Positions 9,300 through 59,000 of a stretch of 64,000 bases of DNA are shown piece by piece. The translations under genes and the position numbers were made by a program. This stretch comes from Tribonema minus. Taxonomy: Eukaryota; Sar; Xanthophyceae; Tribonematales; Tribonemataceae. The notes beneath the pieces are model-generated. The model was given only the letters and a program-made list of their open reading frames with translations. It did no database searches and was not told the DNA's origin. Every line of letters begins with the position of its first letter. Within the stretch, counting starts at the first letter, position 1. The stretch lies in assembly GCA_017506865.1 (NCBI GenBank), contig JAFCMP010000046.1, forward strand, positions 1,178,001 through 1,242,000. The letters run 5' to 3'.

Positions 9300-12200
9300 C
9301 GGACATTGGTCTCGAGCTAGGCCTTCCGTTGGCTCTGGCGAAGCCTCATTTGTGTAAGCCCTGGGTTGTTGGACACGCGTATTATTGAACAGCTCATGGT
9401 CACAGCCGCAAACTGCGTGAAATATCGTCTATTTTGTCGTGTTACAGCCTTCATCACCCTTCTTTGTGCCATTGACGTTGATTGGCTTCTGTGGTGAGAT
9501 GTCAAGACTGGTTGGAATATTATGATCAGTTGGGTGGGTATGGCACCACTAAAAGACATGAGCACGACCCGCTTTGGCACAGCGAGCATCTTACCTCCGG
9601 GTATCTAGGTTCATACAATGTCTTCGACTTTCACACTGCTCGTGTGACCAAGTTGCATGGAAGTTGAACTGAAACTCATTGAAGCACTCCATGCGTGGCT
9701 TAATGACAATTAGGCTCCAGCATTCTGCGTCAAGTGCACCTCTCACCTACGCAAGGCCGCCATTTGGTTTCATTCATGGCATGATTGAGCTCTTTTCCCG
9801 TCTGTTCACCACCTTCGCCACCTATTGGGACAAACACATAGTCATCATCTTCATCTTCAAAACCTTCTCTGAGTACGACAAATTTTGGTTTCACCAATCT
9901 GCGCACTGATGGAGCACATTTTCAGCTGCATAAAGTGTGCTGGTGCACCTGTGGTATGCAATCTTGTGGTTGGGTGCTCGTGGATAGCCATGTATGCTGT
10001 GCAGGGTCCCACTTGCTTCACAGGACAAGCAACACGCATGGCACCTCGGACAGCATCATCGGTTGTGCAGTGGCGGAGCATCATGGTGCTGCCTCTTCCC
10101 GACAAGCTGGCTGACCGTGCATGATTGGCTACAGGACTATGGCCTTTATCAAGCCTCAAGTGAGCTGCCCCACAAGTGAGCTGCTGCTGACCTACGTAAA
10201 CCCGCTTCAGGCATGCCACTTGAGCATTCATTCAAATTCATTGATTGCCATGGTCTTGGACCTGCAGCTTCAGTGGAAATGTCCAGCGTGTCCTTTTTGG
10301 AAGTGATTTCGTGATATCACCAAGGACACATCGGCACTTTGGTAGCATTACAGATTGGCTTTGGTAGCACTGATTGGCTGTCGCCGCTTGTTGTTTGTCA
10401 GTAGAAGTTAGTTGGCTGTGTGTGTATCTGATACGCAATGGCTGACCCTGATGATTTCGCTGACCTTATATGCTCCCTGAGCACTGTCAAGTTGTTTTGT
10501 GTAGCCTGGGCAGCCATCAATGTTGGTACCTCTTCAGGAAATCATTGCTTCATTATGGGCGCTCATTGAACATTTCTGCAATCGTATCTTTGCTGGTGAC
10601 ATAGCTTCTTCTGAGCATCGTGCCACGGCGCTGACACTGCATCAAGGATCTTCATGAGCCTGAGAACAACAAAGAGTGAATTCAACATTGGCCATCAGCC
10701 TTCTGTACACATCTGCATTGGACAGCAAGACGCTACAATTCTGCTCTGGTCAACTCGCATCTACTTATCTTCTGACTTCAAGCAGCTCATATTGCCCAAA
10801 TTTGGACATTTGGCTGATGGCGCCATTCATTGCTTGTTGAGGAACGTGATGGAAAACAGTTAGGTCATGCGTCACTTGTTGAAGTCATGCAGGTTTGGTG
10901 TATGGATCGGCCGCGGGGCAGGCGCATGCACATTGCTCATGTGCATGCTCTGCTCTGAGAGGTTGCACTCCACGGTGACACTTGGGAGGTGTCATTTGTG
11001 GCTGTATCCACGGATACTGCTTTGCAACCTGGTGTTTTTCAACACCACCCATGTGGGAAGAAATGCCCTGAGGGCTATGCATTTGCGAAGCTGCAATGTG
11101 ACACGTTCGTTTTGCAACCACTTTGACTTGTCTGTGCTGCACTTGTTCGCTGACTGTCCTCCAGCATCAGTCTGACTTGATTTCGTTGAGCACGCCAAAG
11201 CTTTGATGGGCCTTTGATACAGAAGTCAGCATGCGAGATACTGCAGCGCTGACAACGCATGGCTGGCAAGTTTGCAGCTTTGTTGTTGAGTCACAGCTTG
11301 ACTGAGGGGGCTGTTTGATACCATTTGTTTTTCTTGCTGAGAGTGCACAAGAGGCCAACCTATCGTTGGCAAGGTTTTCTTGTTTCGTCATGTGCTGCGT
11401 GACAACTTGTGTTGTCATGATAGAATGAGAATGCAAGCAGCAAACAGTTGCACAAGGGCCGCAGCATTTCGCTTTGCATTGTGCACCTCGCAATTCGCTC
11501 GCACAATAGTTTCCATGTCTAGGGTCAGACAGTCAAACTACATTGGTGCATCTGCAACAGCAGCAAGTAGGTGGCTGATTTGAGAGCGGGCAGCTAATCG
11601 CTCAATCTGGTCCGCAAGCTGCAGTTTGGAGTAGATGCATCCACATCTGTGACATGAGCTATTTAAAAAATGTAGAAACAGCAGCTGCTTTCTTAAGCGC
11701 TAGCTGCAGTTGAAGATATACTTCAAGTATACAGTTCACCATCTGTGACACATGAGCTTGATTTGGTGCAGAGGCAGCGTACATGAGCTTGATTTGATAA
11801 AGATGCAGCGCACCACTTCTGTGTACCCCTGGAGGATATCCACGCTCCTAGGGCACAGCGCAGACTAGGCTGTGTTGATGCAAACTTTTCGATTGCATGG
11901 GCAGCCCGCCTCCCTCGGGCCCTTCATAAATACAAGTCCTTACGTACCTTTCGAGAATGTCAGCAAGGCGAAGAGCTTTCATGACCGCATGCGTTCGGAC
12001 TCTACTTTGCATGCAATGGTGGCTAGACTGCCAGGTGAGCAATTTTCGCGTTGCATCTTAGACCAGTGCAAAGCGCCAAGGTGCGAGTGCGCAGGAGGCA
12101 ATCATGTGATGCATTCATTACATTGACAGCAATCTGCGCCGCAAAATTTTATGTCATGGGGGGCAAAGCCTGTGTTCCAGAGGCAACATGTGTAATTCCC

Positions 12201-15300: not shown

Positions 15301-18300
15301 CAGGCAACAATGGAAAACCTGATGCAGTTGAAGTATCGTAATATCAAAGTTGAACTCACCTCGCTCAGTGCAATGTTGATCATGTTGAACATAGCGTTGC
15401 GGAAGAAACGGATGGTCGATGGCCGCAGTGGTGCCTGCACCAATGACATCACAACGAAGTCATGAGCACACAAGCACCTAGTGGCATACAATGTTGCAGC
15501 CAACTCATGTGAGAAGCATACTTTAGAAAGGAAACATTTTGAGTGGGTACAAGTGTAGCTCTACTTCCAGGCTCAGCATCCAATGAGTGCACACTACTGA
15601 AATATATTGATATACGAAGTATGAGTGCGCACTATTGAAAACCCGCCGTGCGGCGTGTGCCACTGCTTCTGTAACACCTGCACACCGCCTGAATAGACCG
15701 CCTCAATGGGCCAAACGGCCACATAGTGCCATACAATGCCTATGTCATGGCTGAACAATCAAACAGCATCATAACCTCGTCGTGACGGCTTGCGGTAGGC
15801 AGGCGCAGGGCTTATGCCCACAACATGCTGAGCGTCATGGGTGCGGTATGCAGTGGGTGTGCTGCGGAGTTTCAAGCTGCGTCCCACAATACTGCAAAGT
15901 ACATTGTAGTGCTAGGCAATGTTGTTAATCCCGTGCCCCCGGGGGGGGAAGGGAGTTACCGGGAGCAAGGGAGCGACCAGGATCTGAAGGGTGCTCCCGG
16001 CACTCCCGGCTGACCCCAGTTGAAGTAAGCCAAGCCCTAGTTGGAGTTCAGCTACATGAGTGGCACACGCACTCTCTCCTCATTGATAAGCATGCTGCCA
16101 CACCGCCTCAACGCCTCACACTGTCTGACAACACTCAGGCTGTCTCACAACACACGTGTGGCGCCTGTGAAGTTCAACGGGAAGTAATATGACTGTTTTT
16201 CAAAACGTAAAACAATGCAGAGCAGCGCAGCAGGCAGAGGCCACGCTAGCGCAAAACTTGCAGTACTTCACAACTAACTTCAAAGTCCGTAAGCCGGGAG
16301 TGCCGGGAGCGATTCAGATCCTGGCTACTCCCGCGGGAGCACGGGCGCGAGTGCCTCAAAGCGCCGGGATTAACAACACTGGTGCTAGGCGTTGCGGTTC
16401 TGACTGGAGAGTCTTCCTTGCAATGGCAAGGGAAGCTACTTCAATTGAACCGTTGCAGTAGCGTAGCATCCTTCAGGGCGCTGAGACAGATGTGCATCAT
16501 GCGTCAGCGCATGGACATTTGCGACATGCTTTTGCATGCAAGGCAAGGGTTCAACCAGCTTTAACACAAGTACTCCATTGTATGATTGAGGCAACAGTCA
16601 GAACCAGCACGCCCTGCTACATGGCTCAGTACAATTGCCCACAAATTGAGAACCGCTTTCTCACACCAGCGAAACGTAGTAGTGGAATTTAACCCTAACC
16701 CAGCCCTAACCCTGGGCGCGGCCCGTGTACCCACGCGTCATCATTGCTCAGCAAGCTCCGCAAGTTGAAGGTGAGGAACGTGAATGGATGCGTACCGGCC
16801 TCTACGCAGTACGCATCCATTCACGTTCCTCACCTTCAACTTGCGGAGCTTGCTGAGCAATGATGACGCGTGGGTACACGGGCCGCGCTCAAGGTTATGT
16901 TGGGGCTGGGCTAGGATTAGGGCTAGTCATTATCGCCTTTACTCACAGTGAACTGTAGGGCGAATATCAAGCGTCTGCAAGAGCTAGGGGTGGAGTGCTT
17001 TCTCTAGAGAGGTACATCCCAACAGCAACACGTCCTGCATGTCAACCTTTACATACCAGCCAAATCGTTCAGATCAATCCATCGCGAGTATTGTCCCTAG
17101 AGCAATCTCGCTAAAAGAAGCATTACATCACAGCTCAATTGAAATGCAGTTGTGAGCAATGCGGCGCTCGCTCACCTCCTCAATTATCCTCTCCACCGCC
17201 TTGCGCACTTCCCTGGAGTTGACCATGTTGGAGGGTATCCGCTCCACGTGCTTGAAGTTCCCCGTGCTGTCGCACAACAGCAGCTCCCACAGCTTTTTCC
17301 CATCCTTGCCCACCACTGGCCTGGATCATCAGCAAGAGAATGATTCCAGCACTTTATATGTACACTCATTAATGCACTCACTATTATATATCCACAGAAG
17401 ATGCTTCATCTGTGTTCACGATGGCGAGTTGCTGCCCAACAGAATCTTCAATGGAGTGACAGCTTGAAAGGGTAAAATAAGAAGTGCCGCAACGATTACT
17501 ACTATGGCAGGTGGTCAGCAAGAGGGGCGCCCTGTGGCTGCAAGAAGCGTTCCCCTTGCCTATGTTCTGGACTATAGCCAGTCTCTTAGCTTGACGATTG
17601 CGATGGTACAAGTGCTGTGCACTGTGTACATGCTACAGCAACACCACAAACAGCATCGGTTCGCAAATGAAACGAGAGCTGGGTTGCACTTGAAGCACCT
17701 CAATACGCCGCCTGACTCAACTGACCAAACCGAATATTTGAGCAACATGGAGCTCCATGCATCCATATTCATCTGAGAAAGGCAGAGTGTATGCTGACTC
17801 TTGGTTGGTATAACTTGCCACGGCAGTGCAACTTACGCCAAATCCTTTTTGGTGACACAAGAACAGAGAGGTCCACTGGCAAATTTCTTGAGTGAAAGTG
17901 AGGTTGTTGTGTTGTGTAGCCAGCACAAATCCTCAGTGCACAAGTGTGCGCTGACGCAAAGGCACTGTGTCAATCGTGGTGTTTGGTGGTGATCACAGAC
18001 AGTTGCTGCGTCATGTCAGGATGCGTGTGTACCATTTATAAAGCTGTTGTGCTGGCAGAGCATGGTCAATGACCACCAGATTATTCAGGATGAGTCATCC
18101 TGTATGTCACCACCATGTTGACTATGTAATTGCGATGATACGCAGTGGCGCTACCTGGGCACAACCGGTGCGTCTGTATCCCCAACGACAGTTATCTGAA
18201 GTCGAAGAGGACGATGTGATGATTTCATGCACCATGTACGTGAATTGTGGGCTGTGTTGGATGAGGCGGTGACAGCAATTGCAGCTGCCAATCGTGAGCT

Positions 18301-25000: not shown

Positions 25001-26630
25001 CATTCCTGTCTTCGCAGGGTGCCGCGCAAGCCGCTTCCGCGGGCTTTGTCAGGGACGAAGACGTCCCCGCAGTAGCCGTTGCCGCTGCGGCTGCGGCGGT
25101 GGCTGACGCTATGCCTGAGATCGCGCCCCCCCGCGCCTCCGAGGCGATGCTGGAGAAGCGTCTTGAAGATCTGCTCAAGACGTCGGATATGAGCCCCGCT
25201 AGAATGTCGGAGCAGGACCAGGCAGCTCTGGTGAGAGCCATGTGCTGTATGCACTGTTATGTACTGTCAGAATCATGTGGATGTTGTCCAGCGACCTGTT
25301 GCGACAACTTTTGTGGTCTGTTCCGGAGAACGCGCTTCTTTGGAAGAAAGTGCGCTGATATGTGGCCCGCTGGAATGTCGGAGCGGTAGCACTGTCATAG
25401 TCATGCGAAAATTGGTTGGCAGTTGTAACCTCTTCTAGAAGATCTGCTCAGGACCTCAGACATGAGCCCTGCTAGAATGTCGGAGCAGGATCAAGCAGCG
25501 CTGGTGACAGCTATGTGCTGTGTGTCATGTTACTGTCAGAACACTGTGGGCACTGTCCGGCATTTGTAATGTCTCTTCTGGAATTTTGGCGCTAGAACCC
25601 CGTGGGCTCTGTCCGGCAGTTGTAGAGTCTCTTCTGGAATACTTGCTCGAGAGCGCGAATATAAGCCCCGCTGCAGTAGAAACTTGCAGCAGGATCTGAG
25701 GATCAAGCTACCGCTGCCTGTACCGCTGCCTGTGGTGTGGTAAATTTGTCACAACTCTGCGGAAATTAGCCAACATTTGTGACCACTTTCCTTGTGTTCT
25801 TGTTGTTAGTTGCTCTCGTTTGGCTTTGTTCTAATGTGCAAAATTCCACAGCAGTAAGTATTGCGGGCTGCTACTTCTGATCGTGCAGTACATCTGCAGC
25901 TTTGCTGCTTCGCGCCTACATTGGAGTTGGGGTCGATTTGCATTCGCCCCTGCTGCTCCCTGCACACGCCGCCATTGCCTGCCAAGCATGACAGGTTTGC
26001 CCCCACCACACTCCTGCGGCGAATGAAAGGCACTGTGTTCCCTCGTCCAAGCCTACGCTGTGTGCCATGCTCAAGTCTATTCATTCAATGTACTCCTGAG
26101 GTACACATACGTCTTACTGTCAGACCACGCTCCACAAAAGCACACGCCTCACAACCCATTTGCACGCAACGCATCAGGTGACGACGCTGGAGGCACTGGA
26201 AGCGAGCACCCCCCCCGGCGCCCACCCCCTGCACTCCCCCCTCCTCACCGGCGACTGGGCTCTGGTCTACTCAAGCTCGGGCTCCGTCTTCAAGGCAGCG
26301 CTCGGCAAGAAGCGCAGCGCGTTCTTCAAGGTCTCGTCCCCCACGCAGAGCGTCGACGCCGCGGCGGGGACAGTGCTCAACAGCGCGCTGCTGCGGCTGC
26401 GCCTCACGCCGCTGCGCCTACGCGCGCGGCAGGCGGGCACGTTCACGCTCGACAAGGGGAGCGGCGCGCCAGGGGCGACCGCGATCGTCAACTTTGCGCG
26501 CGGCGGCTTCGGGCGCTTTGCCAAGCTGTTCCGGCGCGGCACCGCGGCGGTGACGGTCACGTACCTGAGCACTGGGTGGCGCATCTGCCGCTCCGACGGC
26601 GTCGTGCTCGCCTTCAGGAAGGTCCAGTAG
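19087..26630 (+). CDS. Plastid lipid-associated protein (PAP/fibrillin family)
   Basis: Eight exons: 19087-19190, 20700-20802, 22116-22283, 22736-22860, 23378-23468, 24395-24481, 25018-25230 and 26178-26630; 1344 nt, 447 aa, phases agree. The start MAKQLRVLALAPLCAQAFVG is a signal peptide with an A-Q-A-F plastid motif. Residues about 35-297 are an acidic, Ala-rich, low-complexity region with helical segments (VEEVGEKLRDAIMDASDTV, MLEKRLEDLLKTSDM). The last exon holds the PAP domain: LTGDWALVYSSSGS near its start and VTYLSTGWRICRSDG with AFRKVQ at the end, as in fibrillins (LxGxWxLxY; C-terminal RxxRxDxGxxFV). Fibrillins sit in plastoglobules and thylakoids and bind lipophilic molecules. The long N-terminal region is unlike typical fibrillins of 250-350 aa. 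Two exon junctions are duplicated in its introns. Confidence 0.85.
24301..24400 (+). repeat. Tandem 50-bp duplication over the fibrillin exon 6 acceptor
   Basis: Copies 24301-24350 and 24351-24400 (GCTGACACGT-n-AACTTTCAA onward) differ at a few bases. The second contains the acceptor GCAG and the first six bases of exon 6 (TCCAAG); the first carries the equivalent GCCGTCCAAG, where the acceptor is lost. Confidence 0.85.
25160..25700 (+). repeat. Copies of fibrillin exon 7 end plus donor within the next intron
   Basis: The last about 75 bases of exon 7 (GAAGATCTGCTCAAGACGTC ... to the donor GTGAGAGCC at 25231) recur in the intron at 25436-25530 as a good copy that still has a GTGACAGCT donor. 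More eroded copies lie at about 25330-25390 (GGCCCGCTGGAATGTCGGAG) and 25610-25700 (ATAAGCCCCGCTGCAGTAG). Intron sequence after the donor (ATGTGCTGT, TACTGTCAGAA) is copied as well. Confidence 0.85.
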
Positions 26631-27391
26631 ACACAGGAGAGCGCACGTCCAGGAGCGGAGGAAGTTCGGGCGGGCTGGGGCAGAGGGGACAACGGTCTCT
26701 TGGTTTTGTCAACTGCTCCAGTTGAAGTGAGGCACACATTGGCGGGGTTTTTCCTGCGGTTCGCCCCGTTGTTGCGCTTGGTTTTCCCGCTCGCCCCGCA
26801 CGGGGCCCTGCCAGGTCCCGAATAGGGGGCAAAGCCGCGCGTGTGCCTTTCTTGTGCCCCGTTCGCCGGCATTTTGAACCGCCCTCGTTGCTGCATTTTG
26901 TGACCGGCGCACTGTGTGTGCTCAGCCAGTCTCTCCTAGCATCCTCTGCTTGCTAAAGTAACGGCGTGCAGGCACAGCCGCATTTGATTGGGGGGGGGGG
27001 GGGGGGGGGATTGCGTGGTGCATACACGACGGCAGCGGGTTGCTGTTGTGCAGCTGTGCGGGATAGCCGACTCCAAAGACCTACTACTAGATATGTTTAG
27101 GTAACCCCTACTGCTCTGCATGCCAATGGATGTGAACAAGTTTACTTTGGAATGGGCGCCGTTTTCATGCGCCGCATGTGTGATGCATCTGTGCGAAACC
27201 ATGCAGTGTGTGCTGTGGCATCGGATCTGACTCTTGTAAACAAGATATGCTGCAAGCATGATGCGGTGGCCCGCACTTGAAGTAGCACCAAATTCTTCTA
27301 AAAGACTTGGCCTTGCAGGCCTACAGTATTGCGGAGGACTAGGAGAGTATTTTCAAGTACCAGTTGACTGAGTGACTGCATGCCTGCCCTC
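26631..27391. other. Intergenic region with a 20-G run
   Basis: This is the downstream region of the fibrillin gene. A homopolymer of 20 G lies at 26990-27009. No gene is seen. Confidence 0.6.
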
Positions 27392-27423
27392 CACAGGCGG
27401 GACGAGTAGAGTAACTAGAGTAC

Positions 27424-28589
27424 AGACGATCGCCACAGCTGCCACATCTCTACGTGCAGCAACAGGTGACAAGCTGGAACATATACTGCCACCAGCGCTA
27501 ACGCCACTGCAGCAGCAACCACCTACGCAGCAGCCGCCGCTGCGGCCGACAGCAGGTGGTGGCACTGGTGCGGATGCTGCTTGCGTACTTGACGCCAGTG
27601 CTCTGCAGTTGCAGTGTAGCCTGAAGCGCCCCAATCAGAGTGCGCTTGCAGATGCCGTCGCTACCGAGCTTGCAGATAAGGTGGAGGCGGACCTGCAACA
27701 GCTGCCGCAGGGCACGCAACGCACGCAAGCACTTGCTCGATTCCGGTCGCAGCGCCACATGCACTCGATCGGCATGGCATTCCTCAACGAGCCCATGTAC
27801 TCCACAACGGCTTCGTTCGATGGCCTATCCTGGCAGCTGGCCGTCAAACGCGCCATCGGAGTAGAGGAGCAGACGGCAGGCTGCAAGCTGTGCGGGAAGT
27901 CGCCGGGCGGCACCCTGCATGCACGGCTGTGTCAAGCGCCACGCGTCAAGGCGCACGACACCATTGTCCACAATAGCGTCAAGAGGGCCACGCAGCGCCT
28001 CCTGCGGCAATACCTCAAAACGGGACTGGTGGACGAGGACTACACGCCGTTTCTGGGGTCCGCCGGGCCGCCGGGGAGTCGCAGGATGGACATCGTGCTG
28101 CCTGCCGACGCCTTCCCGGTGACCGGCTACGACGACCCGACACGCCACCTACCGCTCATGGTGGACGTTACCTGCTTCGAGGCACAGGTGGCGTCGCGGG
28201 CGGCGAAGACTGCAGCAGACCCCGAGCGATGCTGCCGCGACCAAGAGGCCGCCAAAACTACCCACTATTCTGGTCATTATGATCAGAATTGCTACAAACT
28301 TGCCACATTGGCAATAGGGTCATTTGGCAGCATCGGGGAGCAGGGGCGGAAGCTGCTGGAGGCTGTGGCGACGGAGTATGCCAGCAGGATGTCAGTGCCC
28401 GGAGGAGCGCGCCCTAAAGCTCTCAAGGGCATCGCCCTGGCGCGCTTACGCTCGGCACTGTCGGCAGCGCTCCACATGGCGTACTCTGGCCGTGTCATGA
28501 CACACATGGCAGAATCCAGGGGGGGGGGGCACATGGAGGAGGACGTAGGGGAGGACCCCGAGATGCCATTTGGCGGCGGCGGCGTTTGA
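27424..28589 (+). CDS. LINE-B ORF, C-terminal part (CCHC knuckle and restriction-like endonuclease)
   Basis: The open frame carries a zinc knuckle C-x2-C-x8-H-x3-C (CKLCGKSPGGTLHARLC), then RRMDIVLP and LMVDVTCFEA, which I read as the PD-(D/E)XK core of the restriction-like endonuclease found in R2-type and other early-branching LINEs. It aligns in layout with the C-terminus of LINE-A (knuckle, RILRQ/RLLRQ helix, R-x-D, LDTSV/MVDVT). The reverse transcriptase portion is missing by 5' truncation. A Met upstream at 27372 lies outside the insertion and gives an accidental start. Confidence 0.75.
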
Positions 28590-28701
28590 GTGGTTGTCGT
28601 TGCGACACTTTCAGACTGTCATACGACATGTAGATTCCTTACAGCTAGATGCCAATCATCTGGGCTTTTTCGCGCCCTGAGCGAGAATTAATAAAAAGTA
28701 C
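27424..28701 (+). mobile_element. LINE-B copy 1, 5'-truncated
   Basis: The insertion begins after GAGTAC of the host element and ends with the 3' tail GGGCTTTTTCGCGCCC, then ATTAATAAAAAGTAC. Only the C-terminal part of the LINE protein is present. It is about 99% identical to copy 2 in the shared stretch (roughly ten differences in 0.92 kb), so both insertions are young. Confidence 0.85.
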
Positions 28702-29027: not shown

Positions 29028-30171
29028 GTACTTTTATTAATTTCGCTTCGCAAGGGGCGCGAAAAGCCTTCTCTTTGGATGTGCACTCAATGCAACATTC
29101 CTTCTCCGAAGAGAGACTCAACCGCAAACAGGCTTCCCCCTCTTCACACTACCACCAACACCCCACAACCAAACCCTACTTAGGGTTGCCCAGCCGTGAG
29201 GCACACTTGTCCCGTCTTGAAAAAGATTTATGCAGGCCTGGGTCGCCTTTGACAGCGCCCAGAACTGAGGACCATGCTGACACGTCTGAATCACGCCTCT
29301 AGGCAAAATGATCACTGGGCACCAGGCACTGGTGCTAAGGGTATCAATGCTGTTGCTACGAAGAGTCCAACCCAACCCCAACAAACCCCACCCAAACCCC
29401 GATCGGTCCCCACTATCATGCTGCACCAAAGTGCCTAAGCTACTGCCTCTACACGACCAGACCCACTTTGAGGCCTCCCGTGTCTCTGCCAAAATGGTCC
29501 TAACCGTGAACAGCTTTGTGCAGGCCTGGGCTACTGGTAGCAGCGCCCAGAACTGAGGACAATGGTCATGGATCACTAAGTGCCAGGCACTGGTGCTGCA
29601 AAGGCTGATGCTGTCACTCCAGCAAGCATATCTACTCAAACCCGCCCTTCTATTTGCTAGTGTTACCCCCCCCGGTGTCCCCGGCCGCACACTGGAACCC
29701 CTGCTGCGAACTCCTTCCTCCTGCTGCTCCTGCTCCTGCTCCTCCGCGCCGCTCCCGCCAAGCAGCTGCCGCCGCCTGCCCCGTCGCCGCGCACAGGCGC
29801 CGCTCTCTAACCACATGCCTTGGACAACACTCCGCAGAGTTGTATGACTAACAATCAAGGGTGCCGCGAGGCCCCAAGATAGTGTCCTTGTGTCGGTTGT
29901 GGGTTGAAGGCGTGCGCCATCGCCGGCGGCAGGGACGGCGGCGGATAGGCTCCGGTCTTCGACGGTGTGGTTGCAGGTGTTGGTGTTCGCGTTGATGATC
30001 TTGCCGCAGCAGGCAGCAGGCTTGACACTCGGTCGCTGCGTCGGCGTAGGCCACCGAGCAGGCGAAGCCGCCACCTGCCTGCGCCGTCGCCGCATCGCTG
30101 ACCCTCCCCACGGACAAGACTCTGAAAGAGTGTGTGTAACAACAATCAAGGGTACCGCTAGGTCCCAACTG
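29028..30171 (-). mobile_element. Element X, long copy (non-coding or unknown LINE-related)
   Basis: The minus strand ends with a LINE-B-like tail (GGCTTTTCGCGCCCC, ATTAATAAAAGTAC). The first 555 bp of this interval recur inverted at 36302-36853. The element contains two internal imperfect repeats around CTCAGTTCTGGGCGCTG. A 343-codon frame is open on the minus strand (30149-29118), but its product shows no known domain and is Trp/Arg/Ser-rich in a way that suggests chance. The outer boundary near 30171 is set where GAGTAC-rich host DNA resumes. CAATCAAGGGT repeats lie at about 29857 and 30141. Confidence 0.6.
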
Positions 30172-30240
30172 TACTCTAGTGTTCACTCTAGTACTCGAGT
30201 ACACTAGAGTATACTCTACATATTAGAGTACATTCCTCAA

Positions 30241-30300
30241 GGGTTAGGGTTAGGGTTAGGGTTAGGGTTAGGGTTAGGGTTAGGGTTAGGGTTAGGGTTA
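30241..30300 (+). repeat. Telomere-type repeat (GGGTTA)10 at the LINE-A 5' end
   Basis: Ten exact hexamers follow directly after the left target duplication (GTACATTCCTCAA, 30228-30240) and precede the ORF by 31 bp. They therefore lie inside the duplicated-target boundaries of LINE-A. Confidence 0.95.
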
Positions 30301-30331
30301 GGGGTAGCCTACCCCCCCCCTGCCAACCACT

Positions 30332-33300
30332 ATGACAGCGTCGGCGACCACTCAAGCTAACAGCACCCACATCACGGCTCCGAGTCGGACACAGCCCCGT
30401 ACTGCGCTGCAGTTGCCACAGCAGCCTGAGCCACTGAGGTGTCCTTTATGCACACTGGCATTTTGGCAGCTTGGTCAGAAAGAGGACAGCAAACAGCGAG
30501 GCAAACTGTCAGCTGCGAGCCGCATGGCACCGGTAGTGGCCCACTTCAACGGTGGTAGCTGCACGAGGTCGATGCTGAACCCTGAGGCGAGCACATCACA
30601 CTGTCAGCAAAATCTGGCGGCAGCATACGCCAAGGGCATCCGGCAGCAGGTTGATCACGACCCATCCGGTGACCGTGCCCCTTCAGGCAGCAGTACCTGC
30701 AACACTGGGGCACACCATGCCAAGCGTGTGCAGGAGATGAGCACCATGTATGGTTGCACGGCAGAAGACTTCCTACGGGCGGTAAGGAAGCTGAGTGCAT
30801 GCACAGGTGCCTGCGGTCTGGTCCATATGTCAGCCAGCGCGGGGCAGAGGCAATGCGCGCTGACCTCGCCATGCCACACGTGTCGACGGAATGGAAGCGC
30901 CCCCACGCGCGCACGCCCGGCAGTACCCCCGGGCCAGTCCGAGGGCGGGGGTGCGGGTAGCGACGGCGCGGCCGCGGCGGCGGGGGCTGCCGCAGCGACA
31001 CCTCCAAAGCCACCGGCGGTGCCGGCTAGTGGCGCTGCCAACTCAAAGTCCAGCAAGAAACGCCCGGCGGCCACGGCAACCGGCGCGCAACGCCGGCGCC
31101 GAACGGCAGCTGCTGCAGCACCGCCTGGCAGCGCCGGCAGCCGCACTCAGTCTAACAGCCTAAGGCTGCAGGACAGCAGCCCCCCCCACGGGACGGCCGT
31201 GGGATGGGCGGACATGGACTTGGACCCGCCGGACGATGCCGCGTCACCGCCCCCCCCGACCACCACCACCAGTGGCAGGCCCTCAAAGCCCCAGTCACGA
31301 GCATCCCTGGCTTGGGACCTCTCGACGCCCTCGGTCGTCCACGCACTTGACCAGACCAATGAGGCGGATCTACTGCTGCTACGGTTCACCACGACTGCCA
31401 ACCCCTTCCGCACTCAGCTGCAGTGCACCCAGTGGGCACGGCTAGTGGAGCACGCCACACGACTACTGGCGGACGCCACAGACAGTGCACGTGAGGCGGC
31501 ACGGGTGCGCCTCCACCATGGTGCCGGGGCGTTTGCTCATCAGGTTTCTCAGACTCTAGTGCAGCGCGGCTACAGGCTGCTGCACCTGCTAGCAGCAATG
31601 GCCTTTGGTAGGCAACCGGAGGGAACCGGTATGCCGCCTGCGGCCCGGCTGGCAGCGTTGCTGTCTGGCGACTTTGCGGAGCTACTGAGAAAGACGCTGT
31701 CAGCAGCAGCGGCGCTGCGGGCCCCCAAACCAAACAACGCAGCTACGGCGTCGGCACAAACGAACTTCGATGCCGACTGGACGGAGGCTGACTCCAGGCA
31801 GCAAACAGCATGCGCTGCCCTCTCAGGCAAGCGACGGGGGGTAGGCCTGGCTGCCGCACGACTAGAGGCGCGTGAAGCATGCGCCCCAGCAGACGAGGTC
31901 ACGGCACAGGTGCTGGCAGCAAAGCACCCTGAAACTGGCACCCGGCCCGGGGTAGTCGATACGCCAATGGAGCAAGTGCGCGGCCTGGTACGCGACGCCC
32001 GGCGGCACTGCTTGCACGGCGCAGGGGTGGCAACGACCGCCGGGCCCGCTGGCAGCGGCAGTCCCGTCTTCGAATCGGGTCAGGCGCATGATCGCAGCGA
32101 TAGGCCTGAGGATGCTGCCAGCGCAGCCGGACGGCGCCTCGAGGTGGAGGCGACAGACATACTGTCGACCTTGTCCGCAGCAGGGGCGGGGAAGGCAGGA
32201 GGGCTGGACGGCCTACGCTATGAACACCTCTTGATGGCCGCTGGGCCTGGTGCACCAGTGAAAGCAGCCACCCGCCCCGTGGGCAGTGCCTCGCCAGGAC
32301 TAGCTGGTGATTCAGAATCGGATGTGATGGAACCGGCATTCGCCCATCACCTGGCCAAGGTGTTCACGACGCTGCTTGTTGAGCCCGAACTGCTGCCGGA
32401 GCAATCGCAACGGCTTCTCCGCGCCGCGGCCCTCTCAGGCATAGGACAGAAGCGGCGTCCGATCGCCTGCTCCAGTGTCTGGCGCAGACTCCTCGGGTCC
32501 ACAGCGGCACGGGGTGTCAAGGGCAAAATATCGGGGCTGCTGGCCTCCATGTCGCAGTTTGGCGTAGGATACCGGTCTGGCGTCGAGCATGTGGCAGCGC
32601 GCGCGCGCGTGTGGCACGAGCTGTATGGCACCACAATCCAGCTGGACTGTGAGAACGCATTTAACAGTGTGGATCGCGCCGCCATTGTGCGGGGACTTAT
32701 GCTCTTCTGTCCGGAGCTGCTCCCGCACTTTGAGTCCGTATACTGTGGTGACACTGCCCCAGAGATGCGAGTGGAGGTGAACGGTGAAGCTCGCATTATC
32801 TGCTCCCACCTAGGGTGCCAGCAAGGGGACCCTCTAGGGCCGCTGTACTTTGCAGTGGCAGCGGCATTCCTACTCTTCTACCCTGATGGAGTGAGTGCGA
32901 CGCCCGGCAGTATGCCGGCCTACGGCCACAGCACAGCGGAACCGCCAGCCCCGCACTGCGCTTTCCTGGATGACCTCAACGTGCTGCAAGCTGCCTACTT
33001 CGACGATGCAGCGGCCGCTGGGGTGGCAGAGGTGATCCGTCGGCTTGCGGCAGGGGGCCTACGCGTTCGACCAGACAAGTCGCTGGCCATTGCCATGCGC
33101 GGCACAGTGTTTGATGAAGCGGCCAGAGCACGCCTGCGCGCCCTTGACATACCGTTTGTGGACGCCACCATGCCAGAATCCAGTCAGGGCTTTACGTCGG
33201 TCGGGGTACCGGTAGGGCACCCAGCCTATGTGCATGCTGCCATGAGCAAGCATCTTGTTGACGCAGGGACATGGCGATTGTCGTGGCAGCTAGCTGGGAT

Positions 33301-35275
33301 GGCGCGGCATCACCTACAGGCAGCACAATTCATTCTGCGCAGGTCACTGACAAAGCGCATGGGCTTCTTAGCTCGGGTCGTTGACACGGCTTTGAGTGAG
33401 ACATGGCTGCACGCATTTGACGGGTTCTGTGCATGGACGCTTGAACGCATGCTGCACCTGCACGGCTGCGCTACCGCGGCAGTCATGAAGTCACACCTGC
33501 TGGCCGCCTGCACTGCTGGTGACAATGAGGTAGCCAGCAGTGGCAGCGTGCTGGTATTGCCGCGCTTGGGCCCGCCAGAACTCACGGACATCGCAGTGCC
33601 ACTGCGGGCGTCACGGTTGCCGGAGCGACGAGGCGGTCTGGGCATGCCGCTTTTGGGGCTACTGGCACCAGCCGCATACACGGCCCAGGCATGCACAACA
33701 CTGCGGCCTGCAATAATTCATGCCACTGTGGCAGCAGGGGCCCTGAGGCTCGGCACTGACGAACACGGCGCAGTCACCTGGTGCGCGCAGCACTCATGCG
33801 CAATACGCGAGGACCAGGGACTGCCGCCAATCATCGAGGCCGTGCGACGCTCTACGCGAGCGCTGACAGCTGATGGCGGCGAAAAATCACGCACAGCTGT
33901 GGCCGAGCAGCTCCCAGCATCGTTGCTACGGTGGGCAGCGGATACAACGGCCGCAGCGTCGACGCTCCCCACTGCGGTGCAAGCGATCTACGCCGCAACT
34001 GCCGTCACGGAGACGGGGACCACTGAGCCAGCCCCACACACCCACGGCATTGTGCCTGGCGCCGAGGCGGCCGCTGCGGCGGCGACCGTACCTGGCCCTC
34101 AAGCCGCTGCCGCGGCTGCCTCTTCCACGCCCGCTAAAACACAAACTAGCGCGGAAGAAAGCAGCTGCAGCGGCGGGCAGGAGGACGACGACGACGACTG
34201 GGAGGCCTATGCTGACGAGATCTGCAGAAAGGTAGTGCCCCGCCGCCGGCGCGGTCACTTCACGCACGGACTACAAGCCGGCCTTTCAAATGTTCTTCGA
34301 CGTCAATACGAGGACTGCCTGGTGGAGGACCTAGAGGCTGCCTCGGCTGGTGCCGTGGGCAAGCCGACGCAGGCTACACTTATTGGTGACTTGCGTGACA
34401 CCAGCCGCCGCCGCCAACAGGCTAGCGCGCGGGTCCTGGCGCAGCTGCGCAGCCAGCGTGCGTCCGGGGCAATGGCGTGGATGAGCGTGCCACCCGCTGC
34501 CAATGACCGCCCGGGTGCGGCGCCCATGTCCAGTATGGCAGCAGCCACGATGATTATGGTTGCGATCTTTATAGACGGGTGGGGCATACAGGGCGAGGTG
34601 TGCCCATGGCGGTGCAGTGACGTGAGCCCCACCTCCACGCATGCGATCAGCTGCCCCAGCCAGCACATACGGGGGCACAACGCGACACACACTGCCCAAA
34701 AGCGGTGCCTACAGCGCATCTTGAGACAGCACCATGTCTCTATTGTCCGCAATGAGGACGCTAGCGTCTTCAAGGTACCGGGGTATCGGGCGGACACAGT
34801 CATTGACCCAGGGTGTCTGCACTTTAGCAGTGCATACCGTAACAAGGGAATAGTGCTAGACACAAGTGTGCGCGCACCCACAGCGAGCTCGTACCTGACA
34901 GGCAAAACAAATGCCTCGAACACGGACGGCTATGCTGCTGGGGTGGGGGAGGACGCGAAGGTCAAGCACCACACCGGCACCTTGACGTCATCTTGGGCTT
35001 TTGTGCCATTCGTGCAGGAGTCGTACGGACGGCTGGGCAAGCAGACAAGCCTTTTTGTTAAGGAGTTGGCAATGCACTCAGCACTGTGCTCAGGGGGGGG
35101 GAAGGCAGATGTGTTACGCAAGGCCGGGTTAGCTAAGCGTCAGATCCACATTGAGCTGAGCATATCGCTGGCGCGGGAGTTGGCGGAGCGCGTCATGGCA
35201 TACACACGTGGAGCGCGAATGCTGGGCTGTGTTGCGGCGCCGGTATCCAAACTCCTAGGGCACAGCGCAGACTAG
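30332..35275 (+). CDS. LINE-A polyprotein: reverse transcriptase with C-terminal restriction-like endonuclease
   Basis: One open frame of 1647 codons. A CPLC zinc motif lies near residue 35, followed by a second Cys/His-rich patch and a Pro/Ala-rich linker with basic stretches. The reverse transcriptase occupies about residues 620-970: GGLDGLRYEHLL, IGQKRRPIACSSVWRRLL, motif A LDCENAFNSVDR, motif B QQGDPLGPLYFA, motif C FLDD in place of the usual YADD/FADD, motif D GLRVRPDKS and motif E VGVPVG. At about 1424-1442 is a C-x3-C-x8-H-x3-C knuckle, then RADTVID and VLDTSVRAP with K-x-H-H, which I take as the restriction-like endonuclease. No apurinic endonuclease domain is seen. This layout places it among R2/NeSL/CRE-like LINEs, which are often site-specific. 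No interruption is visible. Confidence 0.95.
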   Translation: MTASATTQANSTHITAPSRTQPRTALQLPQQPEPLRCPLCTLAFWQLGQKEDSKQRGKLSAASRMAPVVAHFNGGSCTRSMLNPEASTSHCQQNLAAAYAKGIRQQVDHDPSGDRAPSGSSTCNTGAHHAKRVQEMSTMYGCTAEDFLRAVRKLSACTGACGLVHMSASAGQRQCALTSPCHTCRRNGSAPTRARPAVPPGQSEGGGAGSDGAAAAAGAAAATPPKPPAVPASGAANSKSSKKRPAATATGAQRRRRTAAAAAPPGSAGSRTQSNSLRLQDSSPPHGTAVGWADMDLDPPDDAASPPPPTTTTSGRPSKPQSRASLAWDLSTPSVVHALDQTNEADLLLLRFTTTANPFRTQLQCTQWARLVEHATRLLADATDSAREAARVRLHHGAGAFAHQVSQTLVQRGYRLLHLLAAMAFGRQPEGTGMPPAARLAALLSGDFAELLRKTLSAAAALRAPKPNNAATASAQTNFDADWTEADSRQQTACAALSGKRRGVGLAAARLEAREACAPADEVTAQVLAAKHPETGTRPGVVDTPMEQVRGLVRDARRHCLHGAGVATTAGPAGSGSPVFESGQAHDRSDRPEDAASAAGRRLEVEATDILSTLSAAGAGKAGGLDGLRYEHLLMAAGPGAPVKAATRPVGSASPGLAGDSESDVMEPAFAHHLAKVFTTLLVEPELLPEQSQRLLRAAALSGIGQKRRPIACSSVWRRLLGSTAARGVKGKISGLLASMSQFGVGYRSGVEHVAARARVWHELYGTTIQLDCENAFNSVDRAAIVRGLMLFCPELLPHFESVYCGDTAPEMRVEVNGEARIICSHLGCQQGDPLGPLYFAVAAAFLLFYPDGVSATPGSMPAYGHSTAEPPAPHCAFLDDLNVLQAAYFDDAAAAGVAEVIRRLAAGGLRVRPDKSLAIAMRGTVFDEAARARLRALDIPFVDATMPESSQGFTSVGVPVGHPAYVHAAMSKHLVDAGTWRLSWQLAGMARHHLQAAQFILRRSLTKRMGFLARVVDTALSETWLHAFDGFCAWTLERMLHLHGCATAAVMKSHLLAACTAGDNEVASSGSVLVLPRLGPPELTDIAVPLRASRLPERRGGLGMPLLGLLAPAAYTAQACTTLRPAIIHATVAAGALRLGTDEHGAVTWCAQHSCAIREDQGLPPIIEAVRRSTRALTADGGEKSRTAVAEQLPASLLRWAADTTAAASTLPTAVQAIYAATAVTETGTTEPAPHTHGIVPGAEAAAAAATVPGPQAAAAAASSTPAKTQTSAEESSCSGGQEDDDDDWEAYADEICRKVVPRRRRGHFTHGLQAGLSNVLRRQYEDCLVEDLEAASAGAVGKPTQATLIGDLRDTSRRRQQASARVLAQLRSQRASGAMAWMSVPPAANDRPGAAPMSSMAAATMIMVAIFIDGWGIQGEVCPWRCSDVSPTSTHAISCPSQHIRGHNATHTAQKRCLQRILRQHHVSIVRNEDASVFKVPGYRADTVIDPGCLHFSSAYRNKGIVLDTSVRAPTASSYLTGKTNASNTDGYAAGVGEDAKVKHHTGTLTSSWAFVPFVQESYGRLGKQTSLFVKELAMHSALCSGGGKADVLRKAGLAKRQIHIELSISLARELAERVMAYTRGARMLGCVAAPVSKLLGHSAD

Positions 35276-35357
35276 GCTGCTGCGTTGACGCAAGCTTTTC
35301 GATTGCATAGGCAACCCGGCCTCCCTTGGGCCTTTATAAATACAAGTCCATACGTAC

Positions 35358-36280
35358 ATTCCTCAACGAGCCCATGTACTCCACAACGGCTACGTTCGAT
35401 GGCCTATCCTGGCAGCTGGCCGTCAAACGCGCCATCGGAGTAGAGGAGCAGACGGCAGGCTGCAAGCTGTGCGGGAAGTCGCCGGGCGGCACCCTGCATG
35501 CACGGCTGTGTCAAGCGCCACGCGTCAAGGCGCACGACACCATCGTCCACAATAGCGTCAAGAGGGCCACGCAGCGCATCCTGCGGCAATACCTTAAAAC
35601 GGGACTGGTGGACGAGGACTACACGCCGTTTCTGGGGTCCGCCGGGCCGCCGGGGAGTCGCAGGATGGACATCGTGCTGCCTGCCGACGCCTTCCCGGTG
35701 ACCGGCTACGACGACCCGACACGCCACCTACCGCTCATGGTGGACGTTACCTGCTTCGAGGCACAGGTGGCGTCGCGGGCGGCGAAGACTGCAGCAGACC
35801 CCGAGCGATGCTGCCGCGACCAAGAGGCCGCCAAGACTACCCACTATTCTGGTCATTATGATCAGAATTGCTGCAAACTTGCCACGTTGGCAATAGGGTC
35901 ATTTGGCAGCATCGGGGAGCAGGGGCGGAAGCTGCTGGAGGCTGTGGCGACGGAGTATGCCAGCAGGATGTCAGTGCCCGGAGGAGCGCGCCCTAAAGCT
36001 CTCAAGGGCATCGCCCTGGCGCGCTTACGCTCGGCACTGTCGGCAGCGCTCCACATGGCGTACTCTGGCCGTGTCATGACACACATGGCAGAATCCAGGG
36101 GGGGGGGGCACATGGAGGAGGACGTAGGGGAGGACCCTGAGATGCCATTTGGCGGCGGCGGCGTTTGAGTGGTTGTCGTTGCGACACTTTCAGACTGTCA
36201 TACGACATGTAGATTCCTTACAGCTAAATGCCAATCATCTGGGCTTTTTCGCGCCCTGAGCGAGAATCAATAAAAAGTAC
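35358..36280 (+). mobile_element. LINE-B copy 2, 5'-truncated and split by LINE-A
   Basis: It starts at ATTCCTCAACGAG, equivalent to 27778 in copy 1, and ends with the GTAC tail at 36280. Its first nine bases also appear at 30232-30240 because LINE-A duplicated them on insertion. Its own target duplication (30211-30231 with 36281-36301, about 19 of 21 bases) brackets both elements. Its open frame (to 36168) repeats the knuckle and endonuclease of copy 1; a chance Met in the LINE-A tail at 35326 gives it a start. Confidence 0.9.
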
Positions 36281-36301
36281 ATACTCTACAGATTAGAGCA
36301 C

Positions 36302-36853
36302 TTAGTGATCCATGACCATTGTCCTCAGTTCTGGGCGCTGCTAACAGTAGCCCAGGCCTGCACAAAGCTGTTCACGGTTAGGACCATTTTGGCAGAGACA
36401 CGGGAGGCCTTAAAGTGGGTCTGGTCGTGTAGAGGCAGTAGCTTAGGCACTTTGGTGCAGCATGGTAGTGGGGACCAATCAGGGTTTGGGTGGGGGGTGT
36501 TGGGGTTGGGTCGGACTCTTCGTAGCAACAGCATTGATACCTTTAGCACCAGTGCCTGGTGCCCAGTGATCATTTTGCCTAGAGGCGTGATTCAGACGTG
36601 TCAGCATGGTCCTCAGTTCTGGGCGCTGTCAAAGGCGACCCAGGCCTGCATAAATCTTTTCCAAGACGGGACAAGTGTGCCTCACGGCTGAGCAACCCTA
36701 AGTAGGGTTTGGTTTTGGGGTGTTGGTGGTAGTGTGAAGAGGGGGAAGCCTGTTTGCGTTTGAGTCTCTCTTCGGAGAAGGAATGTTGCATTGAGTGCAC
36801 ATCCACAGAGAGGGCTTTTCGCGCCCCTTGCGAAGCGAAATTAATAAAAGTAC
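36302..36853 (+). mobile_element. Element X, short copy
   Basis: It is an inverted, 5'-truncated copy of 29028-29583 at high identity. It ends GGCTTTTCGCGCCCC, then AAATTAATAAAAGTAC. It abuts the right target duplication of LINE-B copy 2. With the long copy it makes LINE-A appear to be flanked by 555-bp inverted repeats, though the two are independent insertions. Confidence 0.8.
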
Positions 36854-56005: not shown

Positions 56006-59000
56006 TCATTTCTTGGCCTTCTTTCCAGAGCTCTTGCGGCGCGCCTTGCGCGACACCTGCATCTCTCCCATGCTTATCACAGGTTGAGGCTTGGGCGGCG
56101 CTGGCTTGTTGTCCATCTTCTCTCGTAGCCGTTCCTGCACGATCGCATTGAAAAGAGAATCCATCAAGAGGCCGCAGTGGTTAGGCAATGCCATTGCGTG
56201 TGATCGACAGTGAGCAGTGAGATGCTGTTTGCTACAAGATACTTGAAGCATGTGAAGACTCTGGTAGCAAGCTTGACATCAATCATCTGCGCTTCCTTGC
56301 GCGCCAAGCGGCAACCGACAAAAATTGTACATGGTGGCGTGCTTTTAAAAGGCATGAAGCACGCGTAATATTGTGTCATAATTACATGGCAGCAGTCAAT
56401 GAGGTGCCCCTAGCTGCTCAAAGCACATGCAGTTGCTGTTGTGACGGCTTGTGCGCGCATGTTCAATTGTGAACGAGCGGTTATCCCAATGTTAAGCTGC
56501 GACAGAGGCTTGCCACAATGTCACCCTCAGACTAGTGCACTTCCGGCAAGTGCATGTGCAGGACCCATGACAAGGTAGTGTTCGGTGCTGATGCGTGGCG
56601 TGCAAATGAAGTCTAGGCCACATTTTCTTCCTGCGCTACTTTGTTGAAGTGTATCTTGAAGATCACAAGATCAAATGGTGACCCTTGACAGCATGTTGAC
56701 TGCTCCATGTACCCATACCCATGCCATGTGAGTGCAGAGGAGGAACAAGCTGTGCTTTACAGACTGTGGCGTTTCAAACTTCACAAACTTCAACAGCACG
56801 CACCTGAAGCACAGAGTTGGCGGCAAATCGTTGCCGCAGGCCCTCTGCCGTTTCCGCAGAGTACCCCAGCAGAGCATCCACAAAGAGCTCTGCGTCAAAG
56901 TCCCTGAGGTCAGTGAGGCCCTCCCCAACACCTGCCAGGGACACAAGCACCGCAAACAACGGGCGTGTGTGCGGTATGCTGTAAGCGATTGGCCTCAGAT
57001 ACAATGACCAAGGCGACAGGGCTGCGTACCTCGTGAGCAAGATGGTGATTTTGTTGGGGTGTAGTATGTCGGTGTTATCGTAACGTGCTGTGGTCCAATT
57101 GGCCATATGCGGTAATAAAGCTGTATACTTGGTGAGCGAAAGTAGAGATGTCAATTGTGTCAGTACATGCGTTGTGAGCATTTCATGATCAACTTTAATG
57201 AGTTTTGACGTGAGCGTGCTGTATTGTGTGTTGCTGGGCACTTTCTTTTTCAAAATGGCAGGATGATGACGGGCACTGATGGTATCAGCATACGGATCGC
57301 GATGTATGGGCAAAGCTCAGGTTGCAGGCGCCAAATGCATGCAGTACGATGAGAGTGATCCACACCTGGCGCGGATTTGCCCCGATAATCCACAGTTTCC
57401 GGCCGTACCGCCAGGTGTGGATCACTTTCACCCCCAGGTGTGGATCACTTTCATCGCACTGGCGGTACGGCCGAAAACTGTGGAATGTCAGGGCAAATCC
57501 GCGCCAGGTGTGGATCACTTTCATGGTACTGCATGCACTTAGCGCCTGCAATTTTAGCTTTGCCCATCACGCCACACAAATCGCGATCCGCATGCAGGTA
57601 CCACCAGTGCCCATCGTCATCCTGCCATTTGAAAAAAAAATGCCCTGCAACACACAGTACAACACGCTCTTTTCAAATGAGAAGTACATAAAGTTGATTG
57701 ATGAAATGCTCACAACACAATGTCAAGAGTGCTCATATTGGTGTTCACTTGGCAGAGGGTGTTAGATTTTGTTTTGCGCAAGGGAGGCAGCTAGGGCAGG
57801 GGGGGTTGAAGGGTGGACGTGATTGTCCTGACAAGCTTGATGTGGTTTAAGGGACACCACCAGCCTACATGCAGGCACACCAGGTGTCTACATCAGCGCT
57901 CAGCAATAACGGGCGTATAGATTTTTGTCCTAGAGCACAAAACACTTGTCACAATTTATGTGAACGCCAACGTCCTTGTCATGATCGTACCTGCCGTACA
58001 ATGCTTTCCAGCACTTGTCCCGCTATGTACTGCTCTGTACATGGGATAGTTGCGCACCGAGATGACATTGGTCTATGGTGTTGTCACTCAAAGCCACTCC
58101 AGTCAAAAGACATGCACCTGCAAACTTTCCTTTTTACAAGGGCCACATCTCCCTGAGCTTACTGATCAGCTTCATGGGCACCCAATTTCCACTTGAAGTT
58201 GTCAATGGAACCCACCCCGCACAGAAGCTGCACAAGAGCTCCAGACAAGCGCACCACCACAAATGGGGGCTACATTTTCCTGCGCTTACCAATGAGCTTC
58301 ACGGGCACCAGCACAGAAGCTGCACAGAAGCTCCAGACAAGCGCACCTTAATACCAGGGGTTGTCACGACTCCTCGCTCGGAGTCGTCTCTGACTCCGCT
58401 CCGACTCCGCTCCGGCCGGAGCGGAGTCGGAGTCGTTCGGCATATCTCATTGCTCCGCGGAGTCGGAGTCGGAGTCGTTCGCCGAGCAAGTTGCTCCGGC
58501 CGGAGTCGGAGCGGAGTCAAACAGTTGCTCCGGAGCGAAAGGCCCCGACTCCTGGCTGAGCACGCCCCAAACACGCATATTTGGTACAATGCGGTACAAC
58601 GCAGTGCTGGATTGTGGCTGCAAGTAGCTGAGCTGAGCGACCAACGTAGTGTAAGGTGGTATTGGCTACTAATAGGCAGGGAGCGGAGTCGGACCGGAGT
58701 CGTCGGTCACTCCGCTCCGACTCCACTCCGGCCGGAGCGGAGTCGGAGTCATTTGAGCCGGCTCATTGCTCCCCGGAGTTGGAGTCGGAGTCGTCCAACG
58801 ATTGGTGCCAGCTCCCCGGAGCGGAGTCGGAGTCGTCGGCCCACGAGTGACTGCTCCTCGGAGCGGAGTCGGAGTCGTCCAGGTTTTGAGGAGTCGTGAC
58901 AACCCCTGCTTAATACCAATAGGGGCTGCATTTTCCTGCACTCACCAATGAGCTTCACCGGCACCCCCAGGTCCCTGACAATGGATACCACAAAACCTGC

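Follow-up and report, generated by a model that had tools for sequence, protein, structure and literature searches.

In a 64,000-nucleotide stretch of contig JAFCMP010000046.1 (the whole of it hereafter called the window), a long interspersed element (LINE), here named LINE-A, begins with ten perfect copies of the hexamer GGGTTA, and these lie inside the element's own target-site duplication (TSD). A perfect 60-bp hexamer array at the 5′ end of LINE-A is far beyond chance. The array may stem from a template jump, from telomerase or from repeats long built into the LINE-A family, each of which is compatible with this one clear case. Tentatively, we favour the first kind of explanation, in which the tract forms the 5′ portion of a chimeric, or bipartite, insertion and the reverse transcriptase (RT) either switched to telomeric G-rich RNA or copied an RNA ligated with it.

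Layout and history of the insertion site

A first-pass annotation had described LINE-A as flanked on both sides by the same 13-mer, with (GGGTTA)10 as the first bases inside the left copy and, 31 bp later, a 1647-codon open reading frame (ORF). We found this description to be exact. The parts of the insertion are the following.

30228..30240, forward: left copy of the LINE-A TSD, GTACATTCCTCAA, an exact match with only two occurrences in the window
30241..30300, forward: (GGGTTA)10, the first bases of the inserted unit, seen in the sequence and by a tandem repeat finder (30240-30307, 11.3 copies, period 6)
30301..30331, forward: 31-bp leader with a 6-bp hairpin, GGGGTA-GCC-TACCCC, which is present in the minimum-energy fold, and a C9 run
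30332..35275, forward: intact LINE-A ORF of 1647 aa, with a possible CCHC-type finger from residue 37, an RT FLDD box at 878, and a C-terminal CCHC plus restriction-like endonuclease motifs at 1424-1512
35276..35353, forward: LINE-A 3′ untranslated region (UTR) of 78 bp, which lacks poly(A) and by sequence comparison has an 86 percent match in the relic at 11837-11943
35354..35366, forward: right copy of the LINE-A TSD, an exact match to the left copy

The two 13-bp copies at 30228-30240 and 35354-35366 are the sole occurrences of this sequence on either strand of the 64 kb. When duplications were scored empirically against about 1990 random GTAC-bearing pairs from the window, about three control pairs did as well as this 13/13 match (p 0.002). 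The tract is perfect and stands directly inside the left copy. At the junction between flank and tract (CAA/GGG) the overlap is at most one base on the flank side (A/GGG), and on the element side the sequence is GGG(G). The tract is followed by GGGGTAGCCTACCCCCCCCCTGCCAACCACT and then by the ATG at 30332, and the ORF frame stays open upstream to 30308, adjoining the tract. The overall fold stability of the leader is not above that of shuffled sequences (z 0.78). No Rfam family, and so no ribozyme for the LINE-A 5′ end, reached its gathering score anywhere in the window; when E values up to 10 were admitted for 30100-30900, four matches appeared, all below gathering and none of them a ribozyme. 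No tRNA genes were found in the window.

The element sits inside another LINE, which carries a duplication of its own.

35357..36276, forward: LINE-B2, an older 5′-truncated LINE hosting the LINE-A insertion, with 98.9 percent identity to LINE-B1 at 27778-28701
30211..30231, forward: left copy of the LINE-B2 duplication, ATACTCTACATATTAGAGTAC, whose partner ATACTCTACAGATTAGAGCAC lies at 36281-36301 (19/21 identical, p 0.0015)
27372..28697, forward: LINE-B1, a longer relative of B2 with the same type of C-terminal motifs, ending before GTAC, as judged from sequence, motifs and comparison

About two control pairs scored as well as the B2 duplication. From this arrangement, LINE-A evidently entered B2 ten bases in from its left end, at the GTAC of the B2 duplication, the two sides having been contiguous beforehand. 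Because B2 runs on across LINE-A and the B2 duplication brackets the nested pair, the tract was absent from the pre-insertion site; because it is missing from the right TSD copy, it must either be part of the inserted unit or have been added where the 5′ junction formed. The earlier statement that the repeats arrived with the element or during its insertion is thus upheld. The opposing possibility named alongside it, an older interstitial tract, was examined and ruled out, since the right TSD copy passes directly into B2 and an older tract would sit beyond a duplication.

The junctions also bear on two further explanations. Growth of the array after insertion, from one or two telomere-like hexamers at the 5′ end that later expanded through slippage or through break repair at the junction, is in our view very unlikely; the junction continues GGGTTAGGGGTAG, which is readable as a short native seed, but the tract is perfect and starts precisely where the duplication stops, and a break at that very point would be improbable. 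Telomeric tracts are a recognised assembly hazard, and the array might in principle reflect a misassembly or a chimeric read at 30228-30330. However, 60 bp are easy to span, and the LINE-A duplication, the B2 sequence and the B2 duplication are all consistent across the tract, which leaves an artefact highly improbable.

Target preference and protein of LINE-A

Among the LINE-like 3′ ends defined by similarity in the window, 11 of 12 are directly followed by GTAC, and the twelfth (44308) stands before GTAT. They comprise two ends of LINE-A, five of LINE-B, two of a third family, C, and three of distant B relatives.

11943, 28697, 28745(-), 28971(-), 29032(-), 35353, 36276, 36849, 42535, 44308, 55871, 56326, minus strand where marked: LINE-like 3′ ends scored for GTAC, from similarity in the window
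11837..11943, forward: LINE-A2, a 5′-truncated relic of the same family as LINE-A by similarity, followed by GTAC and without telomeric repeats at its 5′ junction

GTAC occurs 248 times in the window, against 248 expected by base composition. The proportion of 11/12 is not a clean probability, as the copies of one family share descent and GTAC was in view when the boundaries of the B copies and their distant relatives were placed. Family similarity extends through GTAC, so duplications alone show whether the target supplies it, and these were examined for five of the twelve ends: the LINE-A copy described above (LINE-A1), LINE-A2, B2, B5 and C2. By this measure GTAC was supplied by the target for LINE-A1, where both copies start with GTAC, and for C2 (p 0.0015, a gapped match). 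The flanks of LINE-A2 have GTACC in common, which with a score of 12 (p 0.56) is no better than random GTAC pairs; for B5 the p value is 0.12, and in the B2 duplication the left copy lacks a leading GTAC. Taken together, LINE-A looks GTAC-directed rather than telomere-directed, and the pattern suggests GTAC-directed insertion in three or more LINE-like families. Element C measures roughly 560 bp, and its copies at 36298-36849 and 29583-29032 (minus strand; 97 percent) end with AATTAATAAAA before GTAC. The C2 copy has a diverged duplication of roughly 25 nt.

This preference constrains where the source copy of LINE-A may have been. GTAC is absent from TTAGGG arrays, so a GTAC-directed element should not normally reside in them. 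The earliest GTAC within LINE-A is at 30399, inside the ORF, with none between the tract and the ORF; the lack of a GTAC-type source duplication at that position weakens simple read-through from a telomere. The proposal of the first-pass annotation that the source copy lives in a telomere and is transcribed from within it has therefore lost ground, both to the 11/12 ends before GTAC and to the missing duplication. This leaves room for the tract as what may be an established 5′ leader of the LINE-A family.

In the single long ORF of LINE-A, an RT domain is recognised by its match to Pfam RVT_1 over profile positions 34-192 of 205 (E 1.1e-6), at 29.0 bits, slightly below the curated cut-off of 29.6. 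Towards the C terminus, the motifs of a restriction-like endonuclease were recognised as CPWRCSDVSPTSTHAISCPSQHIRGHN and RAD...LDTS. The C-terminal CCHC and PD-(D/E)xK-type endonuclease motifs are matched in both LINE-A and LINE-B1, and the last 314 residues of LINE-A share 23-25 percent identity with the C-terminal part of LINE-B (BLASTP, 24.7 percent over 312 columns, E 5e-7). Pfam gave no match to an endonuclease domain in LINE-A, NCBIfam returned nothing, and a PDB search yielded a single match at E 5.8, in low-complexity sequence. AlphaFold2 models had predicted local distance difference test (pLDDT) values of 31 for the endonuclease region and 38 for the RT region, which are too low, and they were not used. 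As judged from its motifs, LINE-A probably encodes a restriction-like endonuclease and would then belong to the LINEs of the R2/CRE/NeSL/HERO group. No relatives of LINE-A (whole, 3′ end or RT region) or of LINE-B1 were found in a viral contig collection, and none of LINE-A in a collection of prokaryotic genome contigs, a weak negative given the viral and prokaryotic scope. A search for the GTAC-plus-telomere pattern returned one viral contig, whose ORFs appear phage-like by eye and which was judged irrelevant.

Origin of the telomeric tract

If the insertion is bipartite, the RT would have copied the LINE RNA as far as its 5′ end or a point close to it, then switched to telomeric G-rich RNA (UUAGGG repeats, resembling telomeric repeat-containing RNA, TERRA) and copied about 60 nt of it; alternatively, it may have copied one ligated RNA of LINE and telomeric repeat. 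The cDNA would finally have been joined to the 13-nt left overhang. Consistent with this, the exact 13-bp TSD lies outside the repeats and the sense strand of the tract is rich in G, like TERRA (PMC6410037). R2-type RTs pass from one template to another, and such a jump has been proposed to form the 5′ junction (PMC6895275, PMC8857657). LINE-1 forms 5′ chimeras with several RNAs inside TSDs, those with U6 being 98.3 percent sense, and template switching or RNA ligation is the explanation given for the chimeras with U6 and other RNAs (PMC13174262). At LINE-A, too, foreign sequence stands between the 5′ TSD and the LINE within a single TSD; its orientation is sense only given a TERRA-like partner. 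Since the non-repeat leader is only 31 bp and the frame is open to 30308, the copy may be 5′-incomplete, and a source site in a telomere is unlikely in view of the preference for GTAC.

Several points weigh against a bipartite origin. The tract is seen on one copy only, and the only other LINE-A copy found in the window, LINE-A2, is truncated to its 3′ end and says little about full-length 5′ ends. Telomeric RNA is only presumed in this host, whose telomere motif is itself only a candidate, and G-quadruplexes in such RNA might block copying. The main text of PMC13174262 contains neither TERRA nor any word beginning with 'telomer', so the chimeras it reports do not include this partner. In addition, the CAA/GGG junction, with its overlap of at most one base, does not discriminate template switching from telomerase, and neither does GGG(G) on the element side. 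A lesser variant of the bipartite insertion is top-strand priming on another RNA, as proposed for the poly(T) heads of L1 insertions (PMC2837659); this would require C-rich telomeric RNA, which is reported in fission yeast and plants (PMC6410037).

The repeats may instead have been present already in the source RNA, as a GGGTTA 5′ leader of the LINE-A lineage that was either intrinsic, as in MoTeR1, or ancestrally acquired, with transcription starting within or upstream of it. We regard this as a real possibility, at rather less than even odds but almost as likely as the bipartite insertion. A 31-bp leader is short for an intact LINE, and that is all LINE-A would have without the tract, which could serve as its true 5′ UTR. 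The 5′ end of MoTeR1 does bear telomere-like repeats (PMC7367193). Yet read-through from a tract upstream of a source at a GTAC site would bring a duplication starting with GTAC between tract and ORF, where none is present, and a source within a telomere array is disfavoured by the GTAC preference. Moreover, the 5′ end of MoTeR and FoTeR faces the chromosome end, so the sense strand should be CCCTAA (PMC7367193, PMC12857005), the opposite of LINE-A.

Strand orientation bears on a role for telomerase. As had been argued from the sequence at the outset, it fits telomerase acting on the left flank, or the copying of telomeric G-rich RNA, and does not fit telomerase acting on the cDNA end. Once the second strand was cleaved, telomerase could have added G-strand repeats to the 3′ overhang of the left target (5′-GTACATTCCTCAA-3′), and these would then have been joined to the cDNA end, perhaps via GGG/CCC pairing. 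By the geometry of the duplication, the left side would have carried a 13-nt 3′ overhang on which telomerase could plausibly act. Strand and junction also agree with this course: the tract follows the last duplicated base without a gap (A/GGG), and the element side starts GGGG. Short telomeric insertions occur at mammalian breaks, some with target duplications, and are in some instances attributed to telomerase (PMC2246262); TTAGGG repeats were also described in three insertions at induced breaks (PMC5110952). On the other hand, the priming overlap is just one base, a limited look at the open-licence literature found no report of telomerase at a LINE junction, and no feature of the locus separates telomerase from an RNA template switch, which strand and geometry fit equally. 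We consider telomerase an unlikely source of the tract. If it was the source after all, telomerase could enter the integration intermediate of a GTAC-directed LINE and extend the 3′ overhang left by second-strand cleavage with host telomere repeats before cDNA joining, and LINE insertions would then be a source of interstitial telomeric sequences.

A limited search of the open-licence literature showed no LINE insertion with a telomeric tract inside the TSD in the orientation of LINE-A, which is not proof of absence. A general suggestion that telomeric repeats may be moved by mobile elements has been made in a review (PMC6410037). If the tract was added at integration, whether by a bipartite insertion or by telomerase, then telomeric RNA or telomerase can be drawn in as the 5′ junction forms, a final stage of LINE insertion about which little is known, and LINE-A would be a concrete case of mobile elements spreading interstitial telomere repeats, a route offered as a possibility in that review (PMC6410037). 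If the family carries the tract, a LINE that is not telomere-directed has adopted telomere repeats as its leader.

Host context and comparison with known systems

TTAGGG is a telomere motif in some green algae (PMC7046594), and GGGTTA is here a candidate for the host telomere repeat. Allowing up to two mismatches, GGGTTAGGGTTAGGG was found, besides the LINE-A array, at three short degenerate spots, 13007, 16908 and 62898 (minus strand), and the window's table of tandem repeats contains no second telomeric array. The telomere-like sequences at 13007 and 62898 (minus strand) comprise about two units each and have a GTAC upstream, at a distance of 24 nt for 13007 and 37 nt for 62898; no duplication partner above control was found for either. 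A 230-bp palindrome at 16690-16919 has degenerate CCCTAA repeats on its left and degenerate TTAGGG repeats on its right. Two genes represented by exons in the window point to the nature of the host: one for a chloroplast-type FtsY (58749-60250, minus strand) and one for a PAP/fibrillin protein (26100-26627, plus strand). The best PDB matches of the former are chloroplast FtsY, with Pfam SRP54, and a PAP_fibrillin domain was also found; on these grounds the host is most likely a plastid-bearing eukaryote, with a green alga as a guess.

Endonuclease-independent insertion of LINE-1 takes place at mammalian telomeres. MoTeR1 of Magnaporthe and FoTeR of Fusarium resemble LINE-A in being LINEs with a restriction-like endonuclease, a probable one in LINE-A, and with telomere or telomere-like repeats at the 5′ end (PMC7367193, PMC12857005). 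They differ in being described as located in telomeres, with the 5′ end outward and, by implication, CCCTAA on the sense strand, the 3′ flank of FoTeR being TAACCC, whereas LINE-A is at a GTAC site inside another LINE with GGGTTA in sense. Telomere targeting of the MoTeR type was ruled out for LINE-A, as both copies in the window (2/2) are followed by GTAC in non-telomeric DNA and the sense strand reads GGGTTA. CNL1 of Cryptococcus is likewise an R2-like LINE tied to telomeres that also inserts internally, with a TSD of 0-13 bp (PMC12810828). In contrast to LINE-A, telomeric repeats flank its chromosome-end copies externally, and the consulted part of that account describes no tract inside the TSD.

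Outside the telomere-associated LINEs, short interstitial telomeric sequences at double-strand breaks share with LINE-A a short array at a break and sometimes a target duplication, but the consulted part of their description includes no LINE within the insertion (PMC2246262). The poly(T) heads of L1 5′ ends similarly place an extra repeat between the 5′ TSD and the LINE, via unusual top-strand priming, but theirs is a homopolymer and is confined to L1 (PMC2837659). The chimeras of LINE-1 with U6 and other RNAs, like LINE-A, have foreign 5′ sequence in sense orientation and one TSD around both parts (PMC13174262); LINE-A differs from them in being a single case, in having a telomeric repeat as the partner, and in that the element is probably a restriction-like-endonuclease LINE.

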